Position numbers and translations under genes: made by a program. This document shows positions 2,247 through 53,685 of a DNA stretch of 64,000 nucleotides, piece after piece. How positions within the stretch are numbered: position 1 is the first letter of the stretch; every line of letters begins with the position of its first letter. Under the pieces are notes generated by a model. The model saw only the letters and a list, made by a program, of their open reading frames with translations, had not been told where the DNA came from and searched no databases. This DNA comes from Arabidopsis thaliana (lineage: Eukaryota; Streptophyta; Magnoliopsida; Brassicales; Brassicaceae), in the NCBI RefSeq assembly GCF_000001735.4, contig NC_003070.9, forward strand, positions 6,262,001 to 6,326,000, written 5' to 3'.

Positions 2247-2762
2247 TTACCAAAATCCATTAGCTTGCTCAGTCGCAGCCTCCTCTTCGGATAAGACCCC
2301 TTCCGATACGGCAAAGGCTAAGATATCCTTCAACAGCAGATCTTCAGAAGCTTTCTTAAGATCCAGAATCGGCTGATAGTAGTCAGAGTGAGCATGCATA
2401 CACTTGATCAGCCTAGGCCAGAGTTTATGACACTCATCAGTTTATTTTTGAGCTTCATCAACGCAATTTTTCAAAGCTGTAAATGATTCTTTGCAAGCAC
2501 CCTCATTCATAAACTCGCAAAACCGCAATTCTGTTTCCTCATCCCTCTTTGTTGGGTCAATTTCATTTGGTGGATCAGCTGACGACGTATCTCCGAGTTT
2601 CGGAGGGAATAAGGCGTCGAGCTCCCTGGCTATCAGATCTATAGTAGCATTCACTATCGCTTCTTCATGAGCTCTCCGTCTCTCCGCCGGGAGTTGGTAG
2701 TATGAAGAACTGGACTTCGAATCCCCCGATTTAAAAATCGTGGATGACGCGATGATCCCCAT
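2247..2762 (-). pseudogene. GCK-domain protein gene, interrupted by one in-frame stop
   Basis: Reading from ATG 2760-2762, the frame gives an acidic N-terminus with a potential amphipathic stretch (residues about 25-45, ELDALFPP) and then a GCK domain starting at FCEFMNEGACKESFTALKNC. A TAA (2442-2444) follows residue 106. In the same frame, the rest of the domain continues without further error to TAA 2247-2249 and includes the conserved C-terminal signature KCMHAHSDYYQPIL. The domain has the usual spaced cysteines (CKES..NC...ECH...KCM). Its molecular role is not known to me. The gene is either a young pseudogene or encodes a protein truncated in mid-domain. A single-base sequencing error would also explain it. 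The paralogue at 9768-10284 is broken in the same part. Confidence 0.7.
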
Positions 2763-3270
2763 AGCCGTGAAACCGGATCTTATAGAAATCGGCGATTCAG
2801 CCTGTCAATAAATTTCAGAGTGGAGACGATTAGGGAGGTTAAAAAAAGACAAGTATATATCGAAGAAAACAGGGGAAATATATGCTAGGGCTTTGATCGA
2901 TTTGGCTTCTATGGGAAAATCTTGATATTCCAAGAGATTAGTATAAAACTAGATAATTGTTTTCTTTTCTTTTTTTTTTAAACTAGATAATTTGCCCGTG
3001 ATTCGCGGATATATTTTGGCAATTTTTTTTATGCCAAATATTATCAATCTTTTGTTTTGGTTGATTGTTGATTTTACCAAATATAATGATGCTTAATCAT
3101 ACTTGCATTAAGCATCATTATCAAAATTTCAAGCATTAGAATCATATAAAAATTAATATTTATTTACATATTAGTTTGTAAGGTTTCAAATGCATTCGTC
3201 TCACCCAAAAATGTAATTAAATTATACGAGAATAAAATAAGACAAAAATCCCAGGCCAAGCCAACATTTT

Positions 3271-3425
3271 CAACAATTATAAAACTACATTATCGAATAT
3301 TTCATAACAATTTAAAAATAGATGAACAATTTATTTACTTGTAGCAACAATTATAAAACTCTACATTATCGAATATATCATATAACAATATAAAAATAGA
3401 TGATCATCAGTTTATTTACTTGTAG
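3271..3425. repeat. Tandem repeat (74 and 81 bp) covering the RABA6b stop codon and 3' UTR
   Basis: Two adjacent diverged copies lie at 3271-3344 and 3345-3425. Each starts with CAACAATT and ends with TTTATTTACTTGTAG. The shared end is the complement of the last RABA6b codons, so the sequence for the terminal Cys-Cys-Tyr-Lys-stop occurs twice, once as the real gene end and once downstream. Similar sequence also ends the copy at the left edge of the window. Confidence 0.75.
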
Positions 3426-4659
3426 CAACAATTGGACAAAGAAGTACTCAACGGTCGAGTGGCGGTAACTTCATGAATATTCACAATCTCTTTACCGGGC
3501 GGAACGACAGCACCGTTACTTTCGTTGTTACCGTCACCGTTGAGTCTATTGTCTAAAACGATTTTCTGAGTCAAAACCTCATGTATCCGTCCGATCATGC
3601 TTAGAAACGCTTCTTCAACGTTTTGGTTCTCTAAAGCCGATGTTTCGAGAAAATAGAGACCTTCTGATTCTGCTAGAGTCTTACCCTCTTCTTCTTCAAC
3701 TTCTCTAGACTGCCCGAGATCGGATTTGTTACCGACGAGAACAACGACAGTCTCGGGACTGGAGAAGCCTCTGAGCTCCGACAACCATTTCTCAATGTTT
3801 TTGAAAGTGATTCGTCTTGTGATGTCGTAGATTAGTAAAGCTCCCAAGGCTCCACGGTAATACGAACTCGTTATTGCTCTAAATCTTTTTTCCTCCCATG
3901 CAAAAATAAAAAATAAAACAGTATTATATTTAAGATAAGTAAAAACACATAAATTATTAAAGAAATTCACAATTCTAAATGAAAGATAAAATTTGTCGAA
4001 ATAAATATAATTTTAGTAAGAAAAACAAAAAGAAGAAATGGTCGTGACATTTAACAAAGATTAGGTCCGTGTGACATCGATTGCTTATAAAGATTTTCTT
4101 CTGCGCGTGATCTATTTTCCTAATCATCATTCCAATCCCAAATTTCATTCATTATTTTTTTGTTATTTATCTAGCATATTTACCTTAACATTTAGACACA
4201 AAAATAACTATCGAAAATTTAACAAGTTTGACGTCTTGGTTTGTTACGTTAGAAATTATACAAATAAAAAAACTCTTACAAAACAAGCATTTTTGTTCAT
4301 GGTCAATGAAAAATCAATTAATGGAAGTGAGTTCATTTATTTACGTTTTCTTTTTCTGTGCAAAAATATTAGTCCAACGTTAAATACAGAAATTTTGATC
4401 ATGTCTTCATCATCAAGTCCGTTATAGTAGTATCATACCTTTCTTGGCCGGCGGTGTCCCATATCTGAGCCTTTATAGTCTTATCGCCCACGCGAACATT
4501 CCGGTAAGCAAAGTCTACTCCGATGGTCGGTTTAGAGTCTAACCGAAACTCATCTCTCGAGAACCTCGAAAGGAGGTTTGATTTTCCGACGGCGGAGTCT
4601 CCTATCAGCACCGCCTTGAATAGGTAGTCGCACTCTTCGTCGTACGATTCCTCCGCCAT
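3416..4659 (-). CDS. RABA6B: Rab GTPase of the RabA6 type (RABA6b-like)
   Basis: A small GTPase of the plant RabA (Rab11) group, which directs vesicle traffic between the trans-Golgi/endosomes and the plasma membrane or cell plate. There are two exons, 4439-4659 and 3416-3884 (229 aa). Exon 1 has the P-loop GDSAVGKS, the switch-I threonine in [11 protein letters not shown] and WDTAGQER. The splice falls inside the Arg codon of GQER. Exon 2 continues with [12 protein letters not shown] and carries NKSD (guanine binding) and ETSAL. The protein ends in NCCYK, a dicysteine geranylgeranylation motif. The start ATG gives the usual short N-terminus before the P-loop. The 3' end is tandemly duplicated, and a decayed copy lies at the left edge of the window. 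I am confident of the Rab call; the A6b name rests on memory of the locus order. Confidence 0.93.
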
Positions 4660-7429: not shown

Positions 7430-7600
7430 TTGTTATGCATTTAAAGAAAATAAAAGTTGGAGGGGCTAACGTGACTGAGTGAATCAGAAATGTGTCTCAA
7501 TCTAACGCGGCCAACACGACCGGTACACACTCCTTTTACGCGGTGTGATTGTTTTACAAGTAGTAGTGGGGTCTTTTTTGAATTATCGGTGTTTTTTTTT
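7430..7600. repeat. Paralogous empty site of the 602-1386 retroposon
   Basis: This sequence matches 530-601 joined directly to 1388-1490. It has the same TGTGTCTCAA target and the same downstream CCTTTTACGCGG and GAATTATCGGTG blocks. It lacks the retroposon, so it shows the pre-insertion arrangement and belongs to the duplicated block. Confidence 0.75.
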
Positions 7601-7971
7601 CTAGTACTTGACCCTGAAGAGGCCTCTGCAAATTACTACTAAATCTCAAACTTTAGCTGTATTTCACATTCAAACCCCTATATGCAAAGTAGGCTTCTTC
7701 TTGTTGGTCATGACCTTAGGCATGATTTGAATAACCTCAAGCTCCAATATCCTAAGCATTTGATGAAGTACATGACCCTTACCAAACTGGTGAATTTCCT
7801 TGTCCATTTTTGGTTGTATGGGTAATTGGATTGCTATATAATACATTGACTCGACGGCCACTGTCTTTTGATTTTTTTACTTCAGATTTATCTTTCCCGC
7901 TTTGTCACTGATATGGGTTTGGTATTAATTCCCATGTAAAACCGGTTGCAGCGAATATGTATCACATTATG

Positions 7972-8042
7972 GTTAGTAAGGCGGTAAAAAAATCTCTATG
8001 AGGTTATGGCATTAGGCCTGATTTTCTTACCGCCTTACTAAC
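7972..8042. repeat. Inverted repeat, 16-bp perfect arms with a 39-bp loop
   Basis: The left arm GTTAGTAAGGCGGTAA (7972-7987) is the exact complement of the right arm at 8027-8042. Transcribed RNA would fold into a stable hairpin. No flanking duplication was seen that would make it a transposon end. Confidence 0.65.
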
Positions 8043-8119
8043 TCTAACTCTCAGAGCTTATAGAAAATATTTCATGCTCTTCGAATCTACAAGCTTCAGC
8101 GATTCGAGATTCCAAAATG

Positions 8120-8278
8120 CTATATTAGATTGATTCTCCACACTCTCCATCTCCATTTCTTCTTCTTCTCTATCAAACTCGCGAGAGAACAGACAGCGGC
8201 AATTAGGGTTTTAGAGAAGTAGATGACTACTTCTCCTTTGATAAACCCTCAGAGACACATCAAAATATGTGTATTATG
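8120..8278 (+). pseudogene. Possible fragment of a gene 5' end
   Basis: A CT-rich stretch (CCATTTCTTCTTCTTCTC) followed by AATTAGGGTTTTAGAGAAG and an ATG at 8223 looks like an Arabidopsis 5' UTR with a start codon. The frame gives only MTTSPLINPQRHIKICVL and then a stop (8277-8279). The sequence after it is AT-rich. I cannot identify the source gene, and it may instead be chance. AGGGTTTTAG resembles the telo-box found near starts of translation-related genes. Confidence 0.25.
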
Positions 8279-8494
8279 AAAACAAATTTTATAAGCCAAT
8301 CACTGAGGTATCTCACACAAACATATTTAGTTAACTGTCCTTTGACTTTAGTTTTTCTTTCATGATGAAAGCTTGTAAAAATATTATATGTACTAACAAG
8401 TTGGCTCCAAGAGAAATGATATAAACGAATTCCGGAAATGAAATGGAATTGGAGATGGTAAAGAGCTCATTTAGACTTCCAGCAGACAGGTTAC

Positions 8495-8573
8495 AAGATA
8501 CAGGACTAACAACTTACGGCTGCAGCAAAACCACGAAAATATGTGAAGATACAGGACTAACAACTTACGGCTG
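8495..8573. repeat. 28-bp direct repeat, 51-bp period
   Basis: A 28-bp sequence beginning AAGATACAGGACTAAC occurs at 8495 and again at 8546 without change. This is a small recent local duplication. Confidence 0.7.
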
Positions 8574-9767
8574 TTTCACTCAGTATATACTGAGATATGT
8601 TAATATTGCTTAAAGGGGTCGTGTATCTACAAAATATTTAGTAGCATTGATGATATTAGCAAAGGTTAACACGCGACATAAAGCAACCCGATTTTGCACA
8701 CAAAAAAGAGAAAAGATAAACAACCGGCCTCTATAAAATCTGACGTACAAGTATCCCTTGAATTCGAATCCCTGTCATGGTCGATTAGGACTAAAGAAAA
8801 CTTTGTTCATATTTGTCTGCAATGTACTTGCTACTTAGATCATCTAAAGTGTGGTCCTAAAATACAACTAGCCTAAATATACTAACAGCAGAACAGCAAG
8901 CTGAGTTCCGTAGCAAGAAACAAGGCCAAAGAGAGGTTTTTCCTCAATAATTTAGTATATTGCAAAAATGCCCATGAGAGGGAAGGAAAGGTAGAAGAAG
9001 CTTTTATATTAGCAGTCATGTAATCAGTAACATGTTTCAACCATGAATTATGATCACAGAAGTGGTATTCACGTCTTTTTTTACTTAATGTATATCGTTG
9101 GCTTTTTTTATGTATCAAATGCTTAAAACATAAGGTTCGATCGCTAGTGGTAAACCCTGTAAAGAACATACAATTAATATAAATAGACTACGACCCTAGT
9201 TGCAACTAAAGAAACGTTGAAAGCTAAGAAAAGTTTGTCATATAGATCAGTCTGTTTTCATAACATATACTAACAAGATAAAATTTGAGATTCCGGTAAC
9301 CAGAAAATTATGCAGAGGCAATGCTGGCCTTTGATTAGTCATTCGAAAAGCAAAGAAACTTCATGATTAAACAAGGTAAGCAAAGAATTATATGGGCCAA
9401 AGGCTGTTGTGTATCGTAAGCACAAAGTGAAGCAACAAAGATGTAAACTTTTCAACTGAATGTTCAGAGGAACTAGTAAATGTTCACTAAATAAAGGTCA
9501 GACTGTATCTGTTCCAGAAGACACAAATCACATTCAAGTGAGGCATTAGCAAAGCAAACCACAAAGACGACAAGATTTCTTTAATGAAACATTCATGGGC
9601 GTCAACATATTGATGAACTTTTGAGAAAATGATCTCACGAATCATATAAAAAGAAGAAATCCGACCAATTTTATAAGTCAGGAATCTAAGAAACGAAACT
9701 TTTTCCAATTTATTCCCAAATCTAGTATTGATTATTCCCGTAAACAAGAAAAATTACCGAAATCCTC

Positions 9768-10284
9768 TCAATCATCCCTCGCAGGCTGTTCCTTTTCCGA
9801 GATGACAACTTCTATGAAGTCCTTGGCCAACTGTTCCATCGAAGATTCAGCCAGCGTGATAACAGGCTTATAGTAATTAGAGTGGGCATCTACACACTTT
9901 ATCTTATACACTTAACAAGACCACCAGTTTCCTTCGCGCAATCTTCCAAAGCCTTAAATGATTCTTTGCAATCACCTCCTTTCATGAAGTCGCACAACCG
10001 CTTAACAAGTAGTTCGTCGTCCCTCTCTGTATATCCTTCCTTTGGTTGATCAGTTGATGACTCTCCCACTTTCGGCGGGAATAAAGAGTAGAGCTCCTTC
10101 CACACCCCGTCTACAGACGCTTCCACCATCGCTCGTACGTGAGCACTCTCTTTCTTCGGCTTGTCTTCCTGATTCGTGTAGTCAAACATCTCCCACGGGA
10201 ATTGGTCGCTTCGAAGACTAAGCTCGGCGGGGATCCCCTTGGATGACGATGGGGATGACAATGAGGGTGACGAGGACGTCCCAT
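9768..10284 (-). pseudogene. Second GCK-domain gene, frameshifted at both ends
   Basis: A paralogue of the gene at 2247-2762. The readable frame covers an Ser/Pro-rich start, a KELYSLFPPKVGES segment and the first part of the GCK domain (RLCDFMKGGDCKESFKALEDC). It then ends after VKCIR at TAA 9899-9901. Relative to the paralogue, 19 bases are missing between the ALEDC and KCVDAHSNYYKPV signatures, which shifts the frame. The remainder, in another frame, runs to TGA 9768-9770. The ATG that matches the paralogue's start (10282-10284) is also out of frame with the body, and no upstream in-frame ATG precedes a stop. Translation could begin only at an internal Met (EMFDYT). It is probably a pseudogene. 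The 5' leader and 3' flank are clearly homologous to the first copy. Confidence 0.7.
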
Positions 10285-10699
10285 TTTTCTCAACCGAGAG
10301 ATCGGATCTTATGGAAATCGGCGATACTAAAGTGACTAGAGAGTTCGAAAGAGACGAACCAATTTGCTAGGGTTTCGATACTAAGAAATTTAAAACTTAA
10401 TCGTTTGGGAAATCTTATCTTCTGATATTCCAAAAGATTAGTATATAAGAGCATGTCCATTAAAGAGTCCTAATAATGGAATCCTTACATTTTTATACTA
10501 ATAAATTTTGAAATTTTTTATGTTTAGAGTTTTTGTTAAATCCTAAACATTTTTCTTGTCCAATGGTGAGTCCTTAAATGGGTTTAAAAAAAAAAAAAAT
10601 ATAATAGTTATTAGAAATATGAATGAAAAACTTGAAAAAACTTGAAAACACATAAAATGAAGTTTATAAGTAAAACTTTCCCGAATTTTAGATTTCTAG

Positions 10700-10985
10700 C
10701 ACAAAGTGTCACTAGGAGACCCTTTCTTACTATTTCTCTATCTATCAAAAATGATACGTGCATAGAGTTGAGATTGATGACAAGCTCCTTTATTATGGCA
10801 AGCTCCCATAATACTACTCCAAAGCTGTAAATGTCAGACCTGTATCAACGAATTAGAAGAGCTAATTAACGTTTAAGGAAAAGAAGAACAATTAATCAAG
10901 GGAACTTAACAAAACAGAATACAAGAATATACTTCTTATCAGCAGATATGTTTCATGCTTGATACGCGAGAGGCCAAAGTCAGCT
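10700..10985 (-). pseudogene. Captured fragment of a PAS/Raf-type MAPKKK-like kinase gene
   Basis: On the minus strand an exon begins after CAG near 10987 and reads VADFGLSRIKHETYL, the DFG region of plant Raf-like kinases with PAS domains. It is followed by an AT-rich stretch that looks like an intron. A second exon after CAG (about 10831) reads SDIYSFGVVLWELA and then, less cleanly, NLNSMHV, matching the DVYSFGVVLWEL...NLNSMQV block of the same family. The fragment has no N-terminal lobe, no catalytic HRD and no APE segment. It lies within a TIR-bounded element and is read as captured DNA. The source locus was not identified. Confidence 0.75.
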
Positions 10986-11522
10986 ACCTGTAATGGATAT
11001 CCAAAGGTAGCTCATACTTAGAACATTGTCCACATGCAATTGCCAAAGTCAAGTGAATGTGTAACTAACACTTAATTACAATGTCAAAGGCCATATGGAT
11101 ACGCCGCCTCCAATCCAGTTTTGACGTGCTCTTCTGTAGTAGAGGGAAGAGACTTCAACTGAAAATAGCATTTGAAATGATTAGGTGCATAGATCAGAGC
11201 TATGGCATGAGGTCCAAAAAAAAAGAAAAACGAAAGTGAGAGTAGTAACCAAAAGAGATGAGACCGACATAAATAATTTGGAATTAGCTGTCTCAGAAAT
11301 GATTCGTCTTCAGTAAGATGCAGTTTTTAAGTGAATATGCTTCAGTACAGAAAATTGTTGTCGTTGAAGAAGCAATCTGACTACTAAGAGATGAAAGACA
11401 TAATCAATATTTTTGAATTCCCATTTCACGATACCCTAATTTTGATTACATCTACCAACCCAAATTAATCACGATCTACACAAGCTTAAAGATAGAATCA
11501 TACCTTCAGCATGTGATTGGAC

Positions 11523-14128
11523 TAGAAGTGTCAATTGGGCTGTCCAAAGCCCATTGGTCATGTCCACTTGGACCATTTTTTTCATGGGTTTTATTGGTTG
11601 GTCTTTAATGGACAATGGTCTTAAAATTTGTCCAAGACCATTAAAGACCATTGTCCAATGGTCAGCCCATGGCCAGCCCATACAATGATGTTTATATACA
11701 ATGCATTTTCACACAATCTCGTCAAAAGCTCTATTTATAAAACCATAACATCAACATGAAATCAAACATGCATGTACCTGTTCTTCCCAGTCTTGTAATC
11801 AACCGTGACAACTCAAACACGCATCTAAGACTCTCTATATGCACCTACAAGTAAAGAAAAAAGCCTACAATGGCTACATGGAGAATGATTTAACAGAGAA
11901 ACCCATTTCAATACTACTCCAACATCTAGAAATTGGAAACCAGAAGTGGCCATCTTCAATAAGCTTAGGTAAAACAATAAGCTTAAACAACATTTCCACA
12001 ATGTAATCAATCACAAATGATTATAAGTAAGAGACAAAATCCAGAATCAATTCCAAACCAAAATCTGTCATCCAAGTTGCAACCTTAGACCGGATACCAT
12101 CACAACCTATAGCAATCTGTCAAAGACATACATCATCAAATCAGCCATGTACTGAGAATAATAAACACATAACCATAGGCTCAGAGCTTAAGAGAACAGC
12201 CATGTACCTGTTTCTTCCCAGTCTTGAAACGTTCATGCAAGGGTGGTGTTTGTGTCCTCTTGACCTTGGATCTCATCAGTTTCTTCAATAAGAAAAACCG
12301 AGCTATTAATCTAAAAGCTGCAGTCTAAAAGCCATATAAGTTTACTATTATAAACGAGTTCAAGATGTGAATATTACCAACTTCTTGAAATCCACGAAAC
12401 CAGTTTCTAGTACATAGGAGGGCTTGCACATTAGTAGGTAAAAGGCAGCTTCTATATTTGTTAAGCACACGACTACCTATACTAAAAGCTGATTCCGATG
12501 CCACGGTAGTGATCGGAATGCTTAAGATATCACATGCCATCGATGACAATTCTTTAAAACGCGAGACATTGTTTTCCAATATGCAATAACATCCATATCT
12601 CTAAAAGAGACCATATCTAACACAGGCTCTTCCAAGTACATATCTAATGGTGATTTTCCAGTTCCATTTCTTTCAGAAAAGTAAGAGTAAAACCCCTGAA
12701 ATATGACCAACAAAACAAAATTCTCACTAAGTATAAGAATGCATTTTCAGAAGCATTATGCTTTAAAATGCTTTGCATAGTATCATTTGCAGAAGCATTA
12801 TCTACAGTTAAAGTAAAAACTTTCTTCTCAATTCCCCAATCTTTCAACAGCTCATTAAGCTTCATTGCTATAGCTACTCCAGAATGTGGAGGCGGGAAAG
12901 CACAGAAAGATAAGATCTTCGTTTTCAGAACACCATCAACATCTACATAATGAGCTGTTAAGCAAATATAACTTTCAACAGTTAAAGCTCTCCACAAATC
13001 TGTTGTTAAGCATATTCTACCCGGGATTATAGCTAACTTTTCCTTAAGCTTAATTTTCTCTCTTTCATAAATCTTGTAGACATCAGAAGCTGCAGTATTT
13101 CTGCTCCAAAATTCTATATAAGGGTTAGCATATGTAAAGGCTTCTCTAATTCTTTCATATTCGACAAACGAATATGGAAGATTATGTTGAACTAAAGCCA
13201 CTGCAATCATTTCTCTAAAGACCATCATATCCACCTTTCTGCTAATTCTAGGTGTACTTCCAGGAGTCTTCTCACAAGATCTCATATGACGATTCATGGT
13301 ATTAGTACCATTTCGTCTCAGATTCAAGTGATAAGTCTGCTCACAATATTTGCATGTAACCTCAGTTTTCCCATTAGGATATTTCTGTCCTCTATCGAAG
13401 TTTTTCCAGCATGCAGCACGAAATCTACTTACACTACTTTTACCTCTCTCAGCTGTCCCTGAAGAAGCAGTTTCATGAGGTAGTATCTGATCCATTTCTG
13501 GATCTTCATGGTCCATTTCTTGATCCTCAAGATTAAAGTTGTCTTCATCAACCAAGTTTTGAGTATCCAATTCCATATTTCTGAAACAAATAAAGACATA
13601 CACACGTTTAGCAGTGATAAACAAATAAAGCATGAACTTGACTAAATCACTAGCCTTCTGGAATAATTAAGCATGAACTTACAACACAAAGGGTCTCTAC
13701 ATATTGATGTGCTTCAATTCATAATGAAATTCGAAATGGCGAAACATAAACAAAATCTGAAAAGTGCCCATTTGCTAGCTAGCTCTCCTCATATCCAAAA
13801 TTCACAATTGAACTTTGGACAAACCCACAAGCTAGTAGAACTAACCGGAGTAGGAGTTGAGAGAGAGGTCGAGCTTGGTCGTCGCCGAGAGAGAGCTTTG
13901 TCGCCGGGAGAGAGAGCGTCGTTGCCGAGAGAGAGAGAAGAGAAGAAAATTGATGTGTTGAAAAAATTGATGGGCCAACCATAAACCGTGTGGGCTAGCC
14001 CATTAAACCCATGGACAAAATTGGTCTTTAGACCATATAGCCCGTTTTCATTACGGGCCGACCATGGACTGTCCATAATGTTGTGGACTGGGCTTAGCCC
14101 ATGGTCAGATGACCATTTGACACTTCTA
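11523..14128. mobile_element. hAT-family DNA transposon, internally deleted, nested in the TIR element
   Basis: The element has ends TAGAAGTGTCAATTGGGC and the complement TTTGACACTTCTA. A perfect 8-bp target duplication, GATTGGAC, lies at 11515-11522 and 14129-14136. Eight-base duplications and the TAGNNGTGTCAA end are typical of hAT elements. Both subterminal regions hold many short copies of AGCCCA and TGGTC in both orientations, as expected for transposase-binding subterminal repeats. The interior carries a broken hAT transposase on the minus strand. Exactly matching target duplications suggest that the insertion is younger than the host TIR element, whose ends have diverged. Confidence 0.93.
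12325..13576 (-). pseudogene. Broken hAT transposase with BED zinc finger
   Basis: Starting at ATG 13574-13576, an acidic leader is followed by a BED-type zinc finger (residues about 50-95: ACWKNFDRG, CKYCEQTYH, MNRHMRSC). The N-terminal part of the RNase-H-like catalytic domain follows: ICLTTDLW holds the first catalytic Asp and FTLTVDNASAND the second. The central part with the CxxH motif and third catalytic Glu is missing around 12715-12785. The C-terminal dimerisation domain then follows in other frames: LDMYLEEPVLDM and [20 protein letters not shown]. An internal deletion plus frame changes mean that no active transposase can be made. The sequence resembles the plant DAYSLEEPER/RICESLEEPER group. 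Confidence 0.88.
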
Positions 14129-14165
14129 GATTGGACCATGGTTTCACACAAGACGTCGATTTTGT

Positions 14166-14324
14166 TCACAGTCCTCTCCGATTAACATCACCAAACTCGT
14201 CGACGTTGAGCACCTTCGGTTGAGATGATGAGCACGGTGGATAAGAGAAGAATTCCGGCGATAATATCTTCCGATTTGATGATATAAACGCGTGATGATG
14301 ATGATCCAATCGTTCAATCGCCAT
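14166..14324 (-). pseudogene. Short captured 5' coding piece inside the TIR element
   Basis: An ATG at 14322-14324 opens a 52-residue frame starting MAIERLDHHHHAFISSNRK and continuing with FFSYPPCSSSQPKVLNV up to TGA 14166-14168. The His run, the preceding CT-rich leader and base composition closer to coding than the flanks suggest the captured first exon of a host gene. The hAT insertion lies just downstream at 14129. I do not recognise the parent gene. It could also be non-coding. Confidence 0.35.
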
Positions 14325-15023
14325 CGTCGAGCGGAATTCACAAGAGAGAGAAAACGAAATCGATAAATGAAGAAAAAAACACGGGCAAAGATGATTTTTT
14401 TTTTGTTTTGTTAAAAAATCTCAACCAATTAAAATTTGCCACGTATCCGTCCTTTAACATCATCAAAATTCCTAAAATTAGGTGCGATCCTAAGTATTTA
14501 TCACATTTTAGATTTAATTTTTCTCAAAATTACTTAAGGATTTTGGTTAAGGATCTGTTAAGGTCCTCCCAATGGACTTGCTCTGACATATACACATATA
14601 GGTCCTTTAGTTATATAAGTATTAAATAAATAGATAAATTCCTAATTAGATGGAGATTAGCTTATCACATCTTTATCCATAATATCACACATCTTTAACC
14701 ATAACCATCATCCGAGGATTGTTTTTGGTAAATTTGATTTCAACATGGTTTATGGTGAATGATAGCATTTGTTTGACCCAGCAAAAAAATAGCATTAATC
14801 TTGCATTGTCTAGTACATAAGCCACTGAACATAAAAGGATTTAGAATTTGGAGATTAACACTCACAAGACACATCACTAAGTTGGTTGAGTTCCATTGAT
14901 ATTGATAATAGGATCTGCATTCAATCATAGTGTTACAAAAGTAGATATAGAAACTCAAGAATTCGAAACATGACAAGAGTTTGTTGCTAATAGAGAAATG
15001 TTTCTTCTTCTTTACTGGCTAAT

Positions 15024-49295: not shown

Positions 49296-49484
49296 TCTGA
49301 AGTGATTCGGTAGGAGACGGATCCATCAAACGGGTTTGGACCCGAAATAGATCCGACAATAATAAATGACGTCAGCCCAAATGTCGTATTCGTTCAAATT
49401 CGATAGAGAAGCCCAACTTTCTATATGGACTATTAGAGGCCTTTTTGTTTTGTTTGCTCAAGTCAACGGGTACTATCTCAAGGA
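49296..49484 (-). promoter_or_regulatory. Upstream region of the NAA40-like gene, duplicated at TFB4 (copy A)
   Basis: This region matches 51968-52190 upstream of TFB4, with the same start TCTGAAGTGATT and end ATCTCAAGGA. It contains two site II-type elements (AGCCCA at 49374-49379 and 49410-49415), which are bound by TCP factors and common near growth and housekeeping genes. It also has a TGACGTCA palindrome (49367-49374) that the other copy lacks. Confidence 0.75.
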
Positions 49485-51967: not shown

Positions 51968-52190
51968 TCTGAAGTGATTTGGTAGGAGCCGGATCCATCA
52001 AACGGGTTTGGATCCGAATCAGATCCGACTATAAACGTCGTATCGTAAGCCGGGCTTACTAAGCCCAAATATGGCATTAGTTCAAATTTTTAGATAGGCC
52101 CAGTTTTCTTTATGAACTAAACCGCCTTTTACAAGGGCCTTTTGTTTTCTTTGTTCTTTCTTTTGGAAAAGAACACCAAAATCTCAAGGA
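51968..52190 (-). promoter_or_regulatory. Upstream region of TFB4, duplicated at the NAA40-like gene (copy B)
   Basis: Related to 49296-49484 along most of its length. It keeps site II-type elements at 52062-52067 (AGCCCA) and 52098-52103 (GGCCCA). It lies about 230 bp upstream of the TFB4 ATG, whereas copy A ends only about 50 bp from its ATG. The two genes may therefore share expression control. Confidence 0.75.
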
Positions 52191-53685
52191 ACAAATTTAT
52201 TTTTCAAACTGGCTACTGATACGAAATTCAGTTTATTCAAGCTTTATACTATCGGACGTCGATATATTAATTTTAATGGTAAAAAATTTTGGTTGAAATG
52301 TTGTTTGTTTCAATACTAAAAATTAGTAAATTCACACATGTCCTGATATCCAATCCATCCTATGAAACTATAGTCATGTTTGGAGATCGTCTTGATATAT
52401 AATACATGGGGCATAAAAAGCTTACTACATTTTTTTGGGAGTAACAACTAACAAATAAACAAACAAGTTTTTTGGTTGGAAAAAGAAGCAAATCACATTC
52501 ATAAAGGTTTGATTGACTTCATATAATTTGATTGTTATTCATTTGATTGACTTCATATTATTTTTATTCAGTATTCTTTGGATATATACGCGCATGACAA
52601 TCGACATGCTAAATACTTGTAATCCGTAGGGTCATGTGTGACTGTCCACTAAGAATCTGAAGATCTAATCATAGTTTTTACTAAAATCATATTAATAATT
52701 AACTTGGCAATATTAATGGCGATGGCCATTGGAAAGCTTTTGCATGATGGCCTAAATATAACTTATTGTTTGGTCATTTTCATTAGAAGTCCTTAGCCTC
52801 CGAGGTACATTGAACCTCACAAATTCACATTAAACTTTAAAATCTCCTATAGTTTAGTATATGAAAATTATATAACTAAATTCCACCAATGTCTTTATGA
52901 GTAAATAATAATCTTACTATCAAGTCAAATTAATATCACTAAAATAAATGTTTTGAAAGTATTATTATTTTTCAACAACAATGGATTATGTGTTTGAATG
53001 TGAAGATAACGATTCTGATAGGTAACACAAAGCTTTAAAGTTGTTTTAGCTGTAAATTAGAATGCAAAACTATATAAATAAGTAGTACAAAAAGTTAAAA
53101 ATAACGTTTTTATAACGCTTTTGTAATTTGTAATATCACGGTACATGCTGTACCAAACTTTGATAATTGAGTTACCATTCAAAATCACTAAAACAAACTC
53201 TTTAAATGCATATAAATCTAATCATTAATGCAAAACGTTAAAAGTAACGCTTTTATAACGCCTTTGTAATTTGTAATTATCACGATACAGGCTGTAACAA
53301 ACTTTGATAATTGAGTTACCATTCAAAATCACTAAAACAAACTCTTTAAATGTATATAAATCTAATCATTATTGCGTAGATTTATCTCAATATACACAAG
53401 CCACTATAGCCAGGTTCCGGGTAAGTAGGACAGATAGCAGTCCCATGCATTTAACCTCGTGCAAGATAAACATAAACGGTAGACACACTAGTTGCCATTT
53501 TTAGATACAACTCAACAAATAATAATTAAGATAAAGAACAAAAAAGAGTGATTAACATTTAATGGAAAGATTTATTAGCTTCCCAGGCTCCTCACTTAAA
53601 TCCCACTCAAGTCTCCATATAAAAACTGCAACTTCCATCACTCTTCGATCACCATCATCACTCTCTCTCTCTCTCTTCTATTTCC
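52191..53685. other. AT-rich intergenic region, MKK7 upstream
   Basis: No gene was seen. It contains a diverged tandem repeat at 53088-53374 and a short repeat of TTTGATTGACTTCAT near 52509 and 52541. A TATA box (CATATAAAAAC, about 53617) and a (CT)n leader (53660-53676) lead into MKK7. Confidence 0.5.
53088..53374. repeat. Tandem repeat of about 143 bp, two copies
   Basis: Unit 1 is about 53088-53230 and unit 2 about 53231-53374. Both include the block TTTGATAATTGAGTTACCAT and end in AAATCTAATCATTA. They differ at scattered positions. The repeat lies about 300-600 bp upstream of the MKK7 start codon. Confidence 0.85.

Follow-up and report, generated by a model that had tools for sequence, protein, structure and literature searches.

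The tract at positions 10449 to 14583 of the window (the whole 64-kb stretch of Arabidopsis thaliana DNA analyzed here) is, on balance, best read as an old non-autonomous TIR transposon that carried part of a Raf-like kinase gene, whose cargo decayed and in which a hAT element landed. Compared with the rival readings discussed below, the observations are accounted for better by gene-fragment cargo held within inverted ends, together with a nested hAT of younger age. The initial annotation had already called this tract a Pack-type element, and that reading is probable: the ends, the kinase cargo, and the nested hAT all speak for it, although the target duplication is unequal and a blind scan for such ends is unremarkable. 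We infer that the outer ends once acted as one unit that captured the cargo and was moved by some transposase.

In the scenario that we propose, the outer element would have been a non-autonomous TIR transposon that measured about 1.5 kb until the hAT inserted. Its cargo would have been copied at the DNA level, together with the introns, from part of a Raf-like kinase gene, and the element would have landed immediately upstream of a gene with a GCK domain. To move, it would have relied on a transposase encoded elsewhere that acted on the 13-bp ends, with inward CCTTA motifs perhaps helping. Later, the kinase cargo would have decayed, and the hAT element would then have inserted into it. As expected of a Pack-type element, a host-gene fragment is found inside without a transposase of the element's own, in that transposase matches among the 17 frames scanned occur only in the nested hAT.

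Outer inverted ends and their flanks

The left terminal inverted repeat (GAGCATGTCCATT) lies at 10449-10461 on the plus strand and the right one (GAGCAAGTCCATT) at 14571-14583 on the minus strand, both as exact pattern matches. The ends GAGCA(T/A)GTCCATT reported in the initial annotation are therefore present, and they pair at 12 of 13 bases, with 1 mismatch in 13 bp. Only two exact matches to GAGCAWGTCCATT exist in the 64-kb window, namely the two ends themselves, and a third exact end is absent. An inverted partner with at most one mismatch in 13 within 4.2 kb is available to 510 of 59787 window positions and to 243 of the 35384 positions of similar GC, which gives an overall range of 0.69-0.85%; this chance figure assumes a boundary exactly at 10448|10449, and 1-2 bases' leeway would raise it few-fold. 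In a blind scan of the whole window, the 13-bp end match is not outstanding, with unrelated sites scoring equal or higher, and the interval 10300-14800 alone yields 28 imperfect inverted pairs. What makes the end match unusual is solely that a break in homology to a paralogous flank sets the left boundary independently. Given that fixed boundary, the tract has terminal inverted repeats as expected of a Pack-type element (13-bp ends, 1 mismatch). A strict local alignment of the two ends stops at 13 bp; a gappier alignment, which had no control, extends further with a score of 51.

Next to both ends are stretches in which word counts reveal inward motifs: CCTTA and CCTAA at 10462-10600 on the plus strand, and CCTTA at 14432-14570 on the minus strand. 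CCTWA occurs four times forward and never in reverse within 10449-10600, and CCTTA is found three times forward and never in reverse on the minus strand of 14432-14583; at the right end, CCTWA also has two reverse copies. An inward motif of the CCTTA type is common to both ends at P 0.003-0.027, corrected for word choice, a range drawn from the five of six test settings in which this motif led. Poly-A rather than CCTTA led in the remaining setting (k=5, 139 nt; P 0.013), from which no support was counted. TCCWAA, among five words tried by hand, runs in the wrong direction at the right end (0 forward, 2 reverse). A DNA fold of the right end is unremarkable (z -0.82). An internal TIR-like repeat near 10557 was considered as a trace of element fusion and rejected, its score of 18 being no improvement on shuffled-query maxima, which have a mean of 17.1 and a largest value of 24.

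The outer element is flanked by TAA on the left (10446-10448) and by TGA on the right (14584-14586). Consequently, there is neither an identical target site duplication nor the 3-bp TTA/TAA duplication of PIF/Harbinger elements at these ends. Since two of the three bases agree, the triplets may be a duplication that has decayed. MULEs make roughly 9-bp target duplications, and none of this type is seen at the outer ends.

According to the initial annotation, the element is missing from the paralogous GCK flank at 2935-2960, and this claim survives on one side. Homology of the left flank to the paralogous flank extends to 10448/2948 and then ends, such that the left end coincides with the break at 10448|10449. 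For the right flank (14584-14884), in turn, nothing in 2677-3400 corresponds: its score of 65 is close to the shuffle mean of 63.8 and is equaled or exceeded by 83 of 200 shuffles, and the right boundary is without independent support. We also tried the paralogue as an empty site and rejected it: joining the flanks gives a score of 160, which 0 of 200 shuffles reach, but this is only 49 more than the 111 of the left flank by itself, and the right flank scores more than that by chance (shuffle mean 63.8). Because the paralogue matches the left side only, it marks a one-sided break and not an empty site. The outer tract adjoins the GCK-domain gene on its upstream side, 82 bp from the end of that gene's open frame, and lies between it and a thaumatin-like gene. 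PDB look-ups of two neighboring genes pointed to a MAP-kinase-kinase and a calmodulin-like protein and to nothing else.

These observations bear on the rival reading that survives best, namely that the kinase fragment arrived by Helitron capture or as filler in double-strand-break repair, and that the ends are either chance matches or belong to two unrelated small elements. An end match that does not stand out in the blind scan, unequal flanking triplets, and a strict alignment of only 13 bp speak for this alternative. However, it must also accommodate a left end that falls on an independent boundary, the paralogue break, where the chance of a partner is 0.7-0.85%, and a subterminal motif common to both ends. 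We regard it as unlikely.

Kinase pieces, the proposed cargo

Three exon pieces of a kinase can be read on the minus strand. Piece 1 (SLFPLLQKSTSKLDWRRRIHMAFDI, 11080-11158) corresponds to CTR1 chain residues 120-146 and has TTTTCAG before it and GT after it; an in-frame TGA is read just after the AG. It is followed by a 92-nt intron-like spacer (GTAATTAAG...TTACAG, 10988-11079, minus strand) at the place expected for the catalytic-loop segment. Piece 2 (VADFGLSRIKHETYL, 10943-10987), with CAG before it and its expected continuation lost, corresponds to residues 180-194, and piece 3 (SDIYSFGVVLWELA...NLNSMHV, 10755-10839), with an AG acceptor before it, corresponds to residues 220-245. Individually, these stretches match CTR1 weakly (independent E 13, 4.8, and 0.0052), and the frame of piece 3 matches PF07714 at E 0.0036, below the curated cut-off. 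When joined, they form a 68-aa peptide that matches CTR1 in co-linear order at E 6.1e-11 for the whole peptide. Thus, the exon-intron kinase pieces noted in the initial annotation are borne out, in the correct order and on the minus strand, but its PAS label is not, as no PAS domain is found in the 17 Pfam-scanned frames of the tract. That scan took in 17 tract frames, and the list for 10300-14700 holds 103.

When the joined pieces are aligned, nothing in them corresponds to CTR1 chain residues 147-179 and 195-219. By the usual kinase layout, these two stretches hold the catalytic loop and the APE motif. Given their absence, no kinase is encoded, and the cargo holds no complete Raf-like kinase domain. 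The AG and GT borders of the pieces make the copy look genomic rather than derived from a spliced message.

Preserved exon order and intron-like borders, with two stretches lost, would also be expected if a kinase gene native to this site, or a segmental duplicate, had decayed in place and been hit by a hAT, with no transposon capture involved. Yet the kinase sequence amounts to only about 0.4 kb (10755-11158) of a tract that is bounded by inverted ends, and no further kinase match occurs in the 17 tract frames scanned with Pfam. A gene that decayed in place is therefore improbable, and the captured fragment is the preferred reading.

Nested hAT element and a possible 5′ piece

The nested hAT element occupies 11523-14128 (2606 bp), as judged by its ends and target duplication, and carries a degenerate transposase on the minus strand. 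An 8-bp target duplication with short TIRs beginning TAG is the rule for hAT elements. Here, TAGAAGTGTCAA is present at both ends, and a perfect 8-bp duplication (GATTGGAC, plus strand) is read on both sides, at 11515-11522 and at 14129-14136. Because this insertion with its perfect duplication lies inside, the outer tract predates the hAT.

Both a hAT dimerization domain and a BED finger are found within the element. Dimer_Tnp_hAT (PF05699) matches at 12325-12600 with E 1e-22, and a different frame holds the start of the same domain, at 12522-12746 (E 0.0011). The BED finger (zf-BED, PF02892) is found in 12644-13666 at E 0.00075, with 19.9 bits against a cut-off of 20.6, just below it. The transposase is not intact, and hence autonomy is not indicated, in that it is frameshifted and its dimerization domain is split over two frames. 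The insertion described earlier as complete is thus complete in its ends and 8-bp duplication but not in its coding sequence. When the hAT transposase frame was compared with a viral contig collection, five stretches fit the pattern and none was confirmed.

Beyond the hAT, a 52-codon frame at 14166-14324 on the minus strand is a weak candidate for a second captured 5′ piece, called from its reading frame. It has a CT-rich leader and an ATGGCG start at 14324, reads MAIERLDHHHHAF...GDVNRRGL, and then stops. The second 5′ coding piece proposed earlier therefore exists as a frame with an ATG, but the frame has no Pfam match, its first 51 residues match nothing in the PDB, and it may be a chance frame. 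On sequence grounds, this leader and start, which share their strand with the kinase pieces, might suggest a functional chimeric gene or a source of small RNAs regulating the parental kinase, as raised in the initial annotation. Such a role is very improbable given that two kinase stretches are absent, a stop lies in frame at the start of piece 1, another stop closes the 52-codon frame, and a 2.6-kb hAT lies between that frame and the kinase pieces.

Relation to known transposons

The Pack-type element that we favor resembles maize Pack-PIF elements, which are likewise non-autonomous with inverted ends and host gene fragments inside. As described in the passages cited, however, Pack-PIF elements are repeated and have the TIRs of known PIF elements, whereas here there is one known copy with unequal triplets and ends unmatched to a family (PMC8903248). 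The same passages report that TTA/TAA is the target of most PIF elements, at 81.2% of them in maize and 52.4% in rice, and that packFinder, which discards singletons, yielded no new Pack superfamily when run on A. thaliana (PMC8903248). Transduplicated Pifvine-3 PIF elements of grapevine also carry host exon and intron sequence; from what the cited part of that study states, they form a transposase-coding family in which some captures are common to several copies, unlike the outer element, which has no transposase in the scanned frames (PMC2528002). Gene-fragment shuffling by non-autonomous TIR elements is likewise described for Pack-CACTA and Pack-MULE elements, Arabidopsis included, in the sections consulted (PMC8903248, PMC7385966). 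CACTA ends are given there as beginning with CACTACAA (PMC8903248), and such ends are absent from the outer element.

PIF/Harbinger membership of the outer element is an unconfirmed candidate assignment, drawn from the TAA/TGA near-duplication and from elimination. Somewhat doubtful, though possible, is the fuller proposal of a PIF/Harbinger- or Pong-type Pack element with pieces of two genes, the kinase and a putative first exon, in the same sense. Monkey King, a Tourist-like MITE of Brassicaceae, offers a partial parallel with its PIF/Harbinger type, TAA target, and 14-bp TIRs, but its TIR consensus GGGC(or T)CTGACTGGTT, as given in the excerpt cited, is unlike GAGCAWGTCCATT (PMC4471910). 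Among the matches listed for the TIR strings in the literature, none is tied to a transposon end, and no word beginning GAGCA appears in the main text of a Medicago truncatula PIF/Harbinger paper (PMC2213677). In the portion of its main text drawn on here, a review from 2026 on how plant transposons capture genes does not use the word ‘Harbinger’ (PMC13317346). The TIR-plus-motif pattern has 0 matches in viral and prokaryotic collections, as expected for a plant element, a result that is uninformative either way.

As a single decayed copy, the tract has mainly annotation value, since its kinase and transposase frames encode no whole proteins, and unless further copies that share its ends turn up, it is debris of a kind ordinary in plant genomes. 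Should such copies exist, the gene-shuffling elements of the Arabidopsis lineage would gain a further superfamily, and old, interrupted members would be shown to escape strict TIR/TSD screens. In the part of the survey cited, 15 PIF/Harbinger MITE families are reported from A. thaliana (PMC5454002), which makes a mobilizer of the PIF/Harbinger class plausible.

Inverted ends and the left boundary

The inverted ends proposed in the initial annotation are present where they were placed. Exactly two exact matches to GAGCAWGTCCATT occur in the window, at 10449-10461 on the plus strand (left end) and at 14571-14583 on the minus strand (right end), and these would bound a Pack-type TIR transposon, hereafter the outer element. 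Judged blindly, this end match is weak. Strict local alignment of the two ends covers 13 bp and no further, and a gappier alignment, run without a control, extends beyond this with a score of 51. When the left 40 bases are aligned across the window, the right end reaches a score of 21, against 20-26 for unrelated sites. Counts of looser matches are near expectation and therefore give no sign of further relatives of the ends within the window: six matches to GAGCAWGTCCATT with up to two mismatches (3.4 expected; six reached in 10 of 100 shuffles), and 18 to GAGCATGTCCATT with up to three (18.4 expected).

The end pair is nevertheless taken seriously because its left boundary coincides with a break in homology to the paralogue, a second, tandem GCK-domain gene. 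The upstream flanks of the two genes are homologous up to 10448 (2948 in the paralogue) and stop there, and the left end is formed by the 13 bases that directly follow. This left-flank alignment scores 111, with none of 200 shuffles as good, and blastn aligns 10406-10448 to 2912-2948 (E 3.7e-4). For a boundary fixed in this way, so good an inverted partner is uncommon: across the window, 510 of 59,787 positions (243 of 35,384 at similar GC) have one within 4.2 kb that differs at no more than one base. Alternatively, the break could be where the tandem duplication ended, or it could reflect an independent change on the paralogue's side. At the break, the paralogous flank carries a 13-bp direct repeat, AAACTAGATAATT, whose copies flank a T-rich run at a spacing of 34 bp (2946-2992) and which may mark a further, separate insertion or rearrangement.

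It had been suggested that the paralogous flank simply lacks the element. Homology does end at the left tip, but the paralogous flank is not evidence of an empty site. The right flank finds no counterpart in the paralogue, either by alignment (score 65, a value matched by 83 of 200 shuffles, whose mean is 63.8) or by blastn. Joining the flanks raises the score to 160 (none of 200 shuffles as good), a gain of 49 over the left flank that is smaller than the right flank's chance score. The flanking triplets also differ (TAA versus TGA).

A common subterminal motif gives moderate backing to an outer element with paired ends. Within 152 nt, inward CCTTA words number two forward and none reverse at the left end, and three forward and none reverse at the right end (random mean 0.12). 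At the right end, TCCWAA (none forward, two reverse) does not fit the inward pattern, and CCTWA has two reverse copies. Because CCTTA was picked after inspecting the sequence, every 5- and 6-mer common to both ends, excluding the 13-bp ends, was retested against 3000 random placements. CCTTA, TCCTTA or CCTTAA came first in five of the six settings, with P values of 0.003-0.027; the sixth (P 0.013) was led by poly-A and is excluded from this support.

Kinase pieces as probable cargo

The cargo includes three minus-strand exon pieces, reading SLFPLLQKSTSKLDWRRRIHMAFDI (piece 1, within 11158-11080), VADFGLSRIKHETYL (piece 2, 10987-10943) and SDIYSFGVVLWELA...NLNSMHV (piece 3, 10839-10755). For the 68-residue peptide joined from them, the best match among solved structures is CTR1 (E 6.1e-11 over its full length; the three stretches have independent E values of 13, 4.8 and 0.0052), followed by EGFR (E 0.0011) and IGF1R (E 0.0089). 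The pieces are co-linear with CTR1 (chain residues 120-146, 180-194 and 220-245). Plant kinases are scarce among solved structures, so the nearest gene may be a Raf-like kinase other than CTR1. Pfam PF07714 is touched, under its cut-off, by piece 3 alone and by the joined peptide. Of the PAS/Raf kinase originally proposed, the Raf-like half is supported, and no PAS domain was found by Pfam in the 17 frames of the tract scanned.

An AG directly precedes each piece and a GT directly follows piece 1, which makes the copy look like one taken from genomic DNA. A 92-nt intron-like spacer takes the place of CTR1 residues 147-179, and residues 195-219 are missing altogether. In a typical kinase domain, these stretches contain the catalytic loop and the APE motif. 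There is also an in-frame TGA in piece 1, just past its AG. The cargo encodes no kinase. A second short 5′ coding piece had also been proposed, and a minus-strand frame of 52 codons does exist near the right end (ATGGCG at 14324, stop at 14168-14166), but it has no match in Pfam or PDB and may be due to chance.

Nested hAT and likely origin of the outer element

A second transposon, a hAT of 2606 bp (11523-14128), lies within the outer tract and is therefore the younger of the two. It bears TAGAAGTGTCAA at both termini in inverted orientation and is flanked on both sides by GATTGGAC (11515-11522 and 14129-14136). The description of this insertion as complete holds for its ends but not for its transposase, which is dead: a BED finger is retained (E 7.5e-4, slightly under the curated cut-off), the dimerisation domain (E 1e-22) is divided between two frames, and the centre seems shorter than a plant hAT transposase would require. 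Near one hAT end, an inverted repeat around TGGACAATGGTCTT (11599-11657) can form a hairpin, probably a subterminal feature. Also inside the hAT, a 19-21 bp GAGAGAG/TCGCCG unit recurs about three times upstream of the transposase frame (13871-13937).

The tract most likely began as a non-autonomous element that had short inverted ends and carried part of a kinase gene. It would have inserted upstream of the GCK gene and decayed, after which the hAT would have arrived. In one described capture model, two neighbouring elements are mobilised as a single unit with the intervening DNA (PMC8903248). The one internal end tested as a trace of such capture, near 10557, was no better than chance.

Pack-PIF elements have been described in maize (PMC8903248), gene-capturing PIF elements in grapevine (PMC2528002), and 15 PIF/Harbinger MITE families in A. 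thaliana (PMC5454002). Because such capture is already published, the outer element is at most one more example of known gene-capturing elements, of a putative family. The packFinder study, which was also run on A. thaliana, reports no new Pack superfamily (PMC8903248). That search started from known TIRs, allowed few mismatches and discarded singletons, and could therefore have missed an old copy that is interrupted and has unequal triplets.

Neighbouring genes and repeats

The GCK-domain gene left of the outer element (9899-10366; Pfam PF07802) and its tandem paralogue (2442-2804), both on the minus strand, share about 71% DNA identity (2462-2676 versus 9937-10148). More duplicated scraps lie within 531-2086 and 7435-9451.

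Its genes mark the window as plant DNA. The gene order of the window's reading frames seems to resemble Arabidopsis chromosome 1 at about At1g18200-At1g18370, with genes that presumably encode a RAB GTPase, a calmodulin-like protein, a thaumatin-like protein, HRD3/SEL1, a NUDIX protein, an MKK7-like kinase and a kinesin. Among these names, PDB searches back only the MAP-kinase-kinase, with MKK5 as the single match at E 1e-60 or better, and the calmodulin-like protein. Apparently, the RAB GTPase gene region has a partial second copy at the window's left edge (26-329 versus 3388-3702, 89% identity). A 144-bp unit, present in two copies at 93% identity (53088-53375), ends up about 310 bp ahead of where the MKK7-like kinase starts (53686) and may be a duplicated promoter segment. 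A direct repeat of about 150 bp (49296-49432 versus 51968-52119, 74.5% identity) is possibly a dispersed element.
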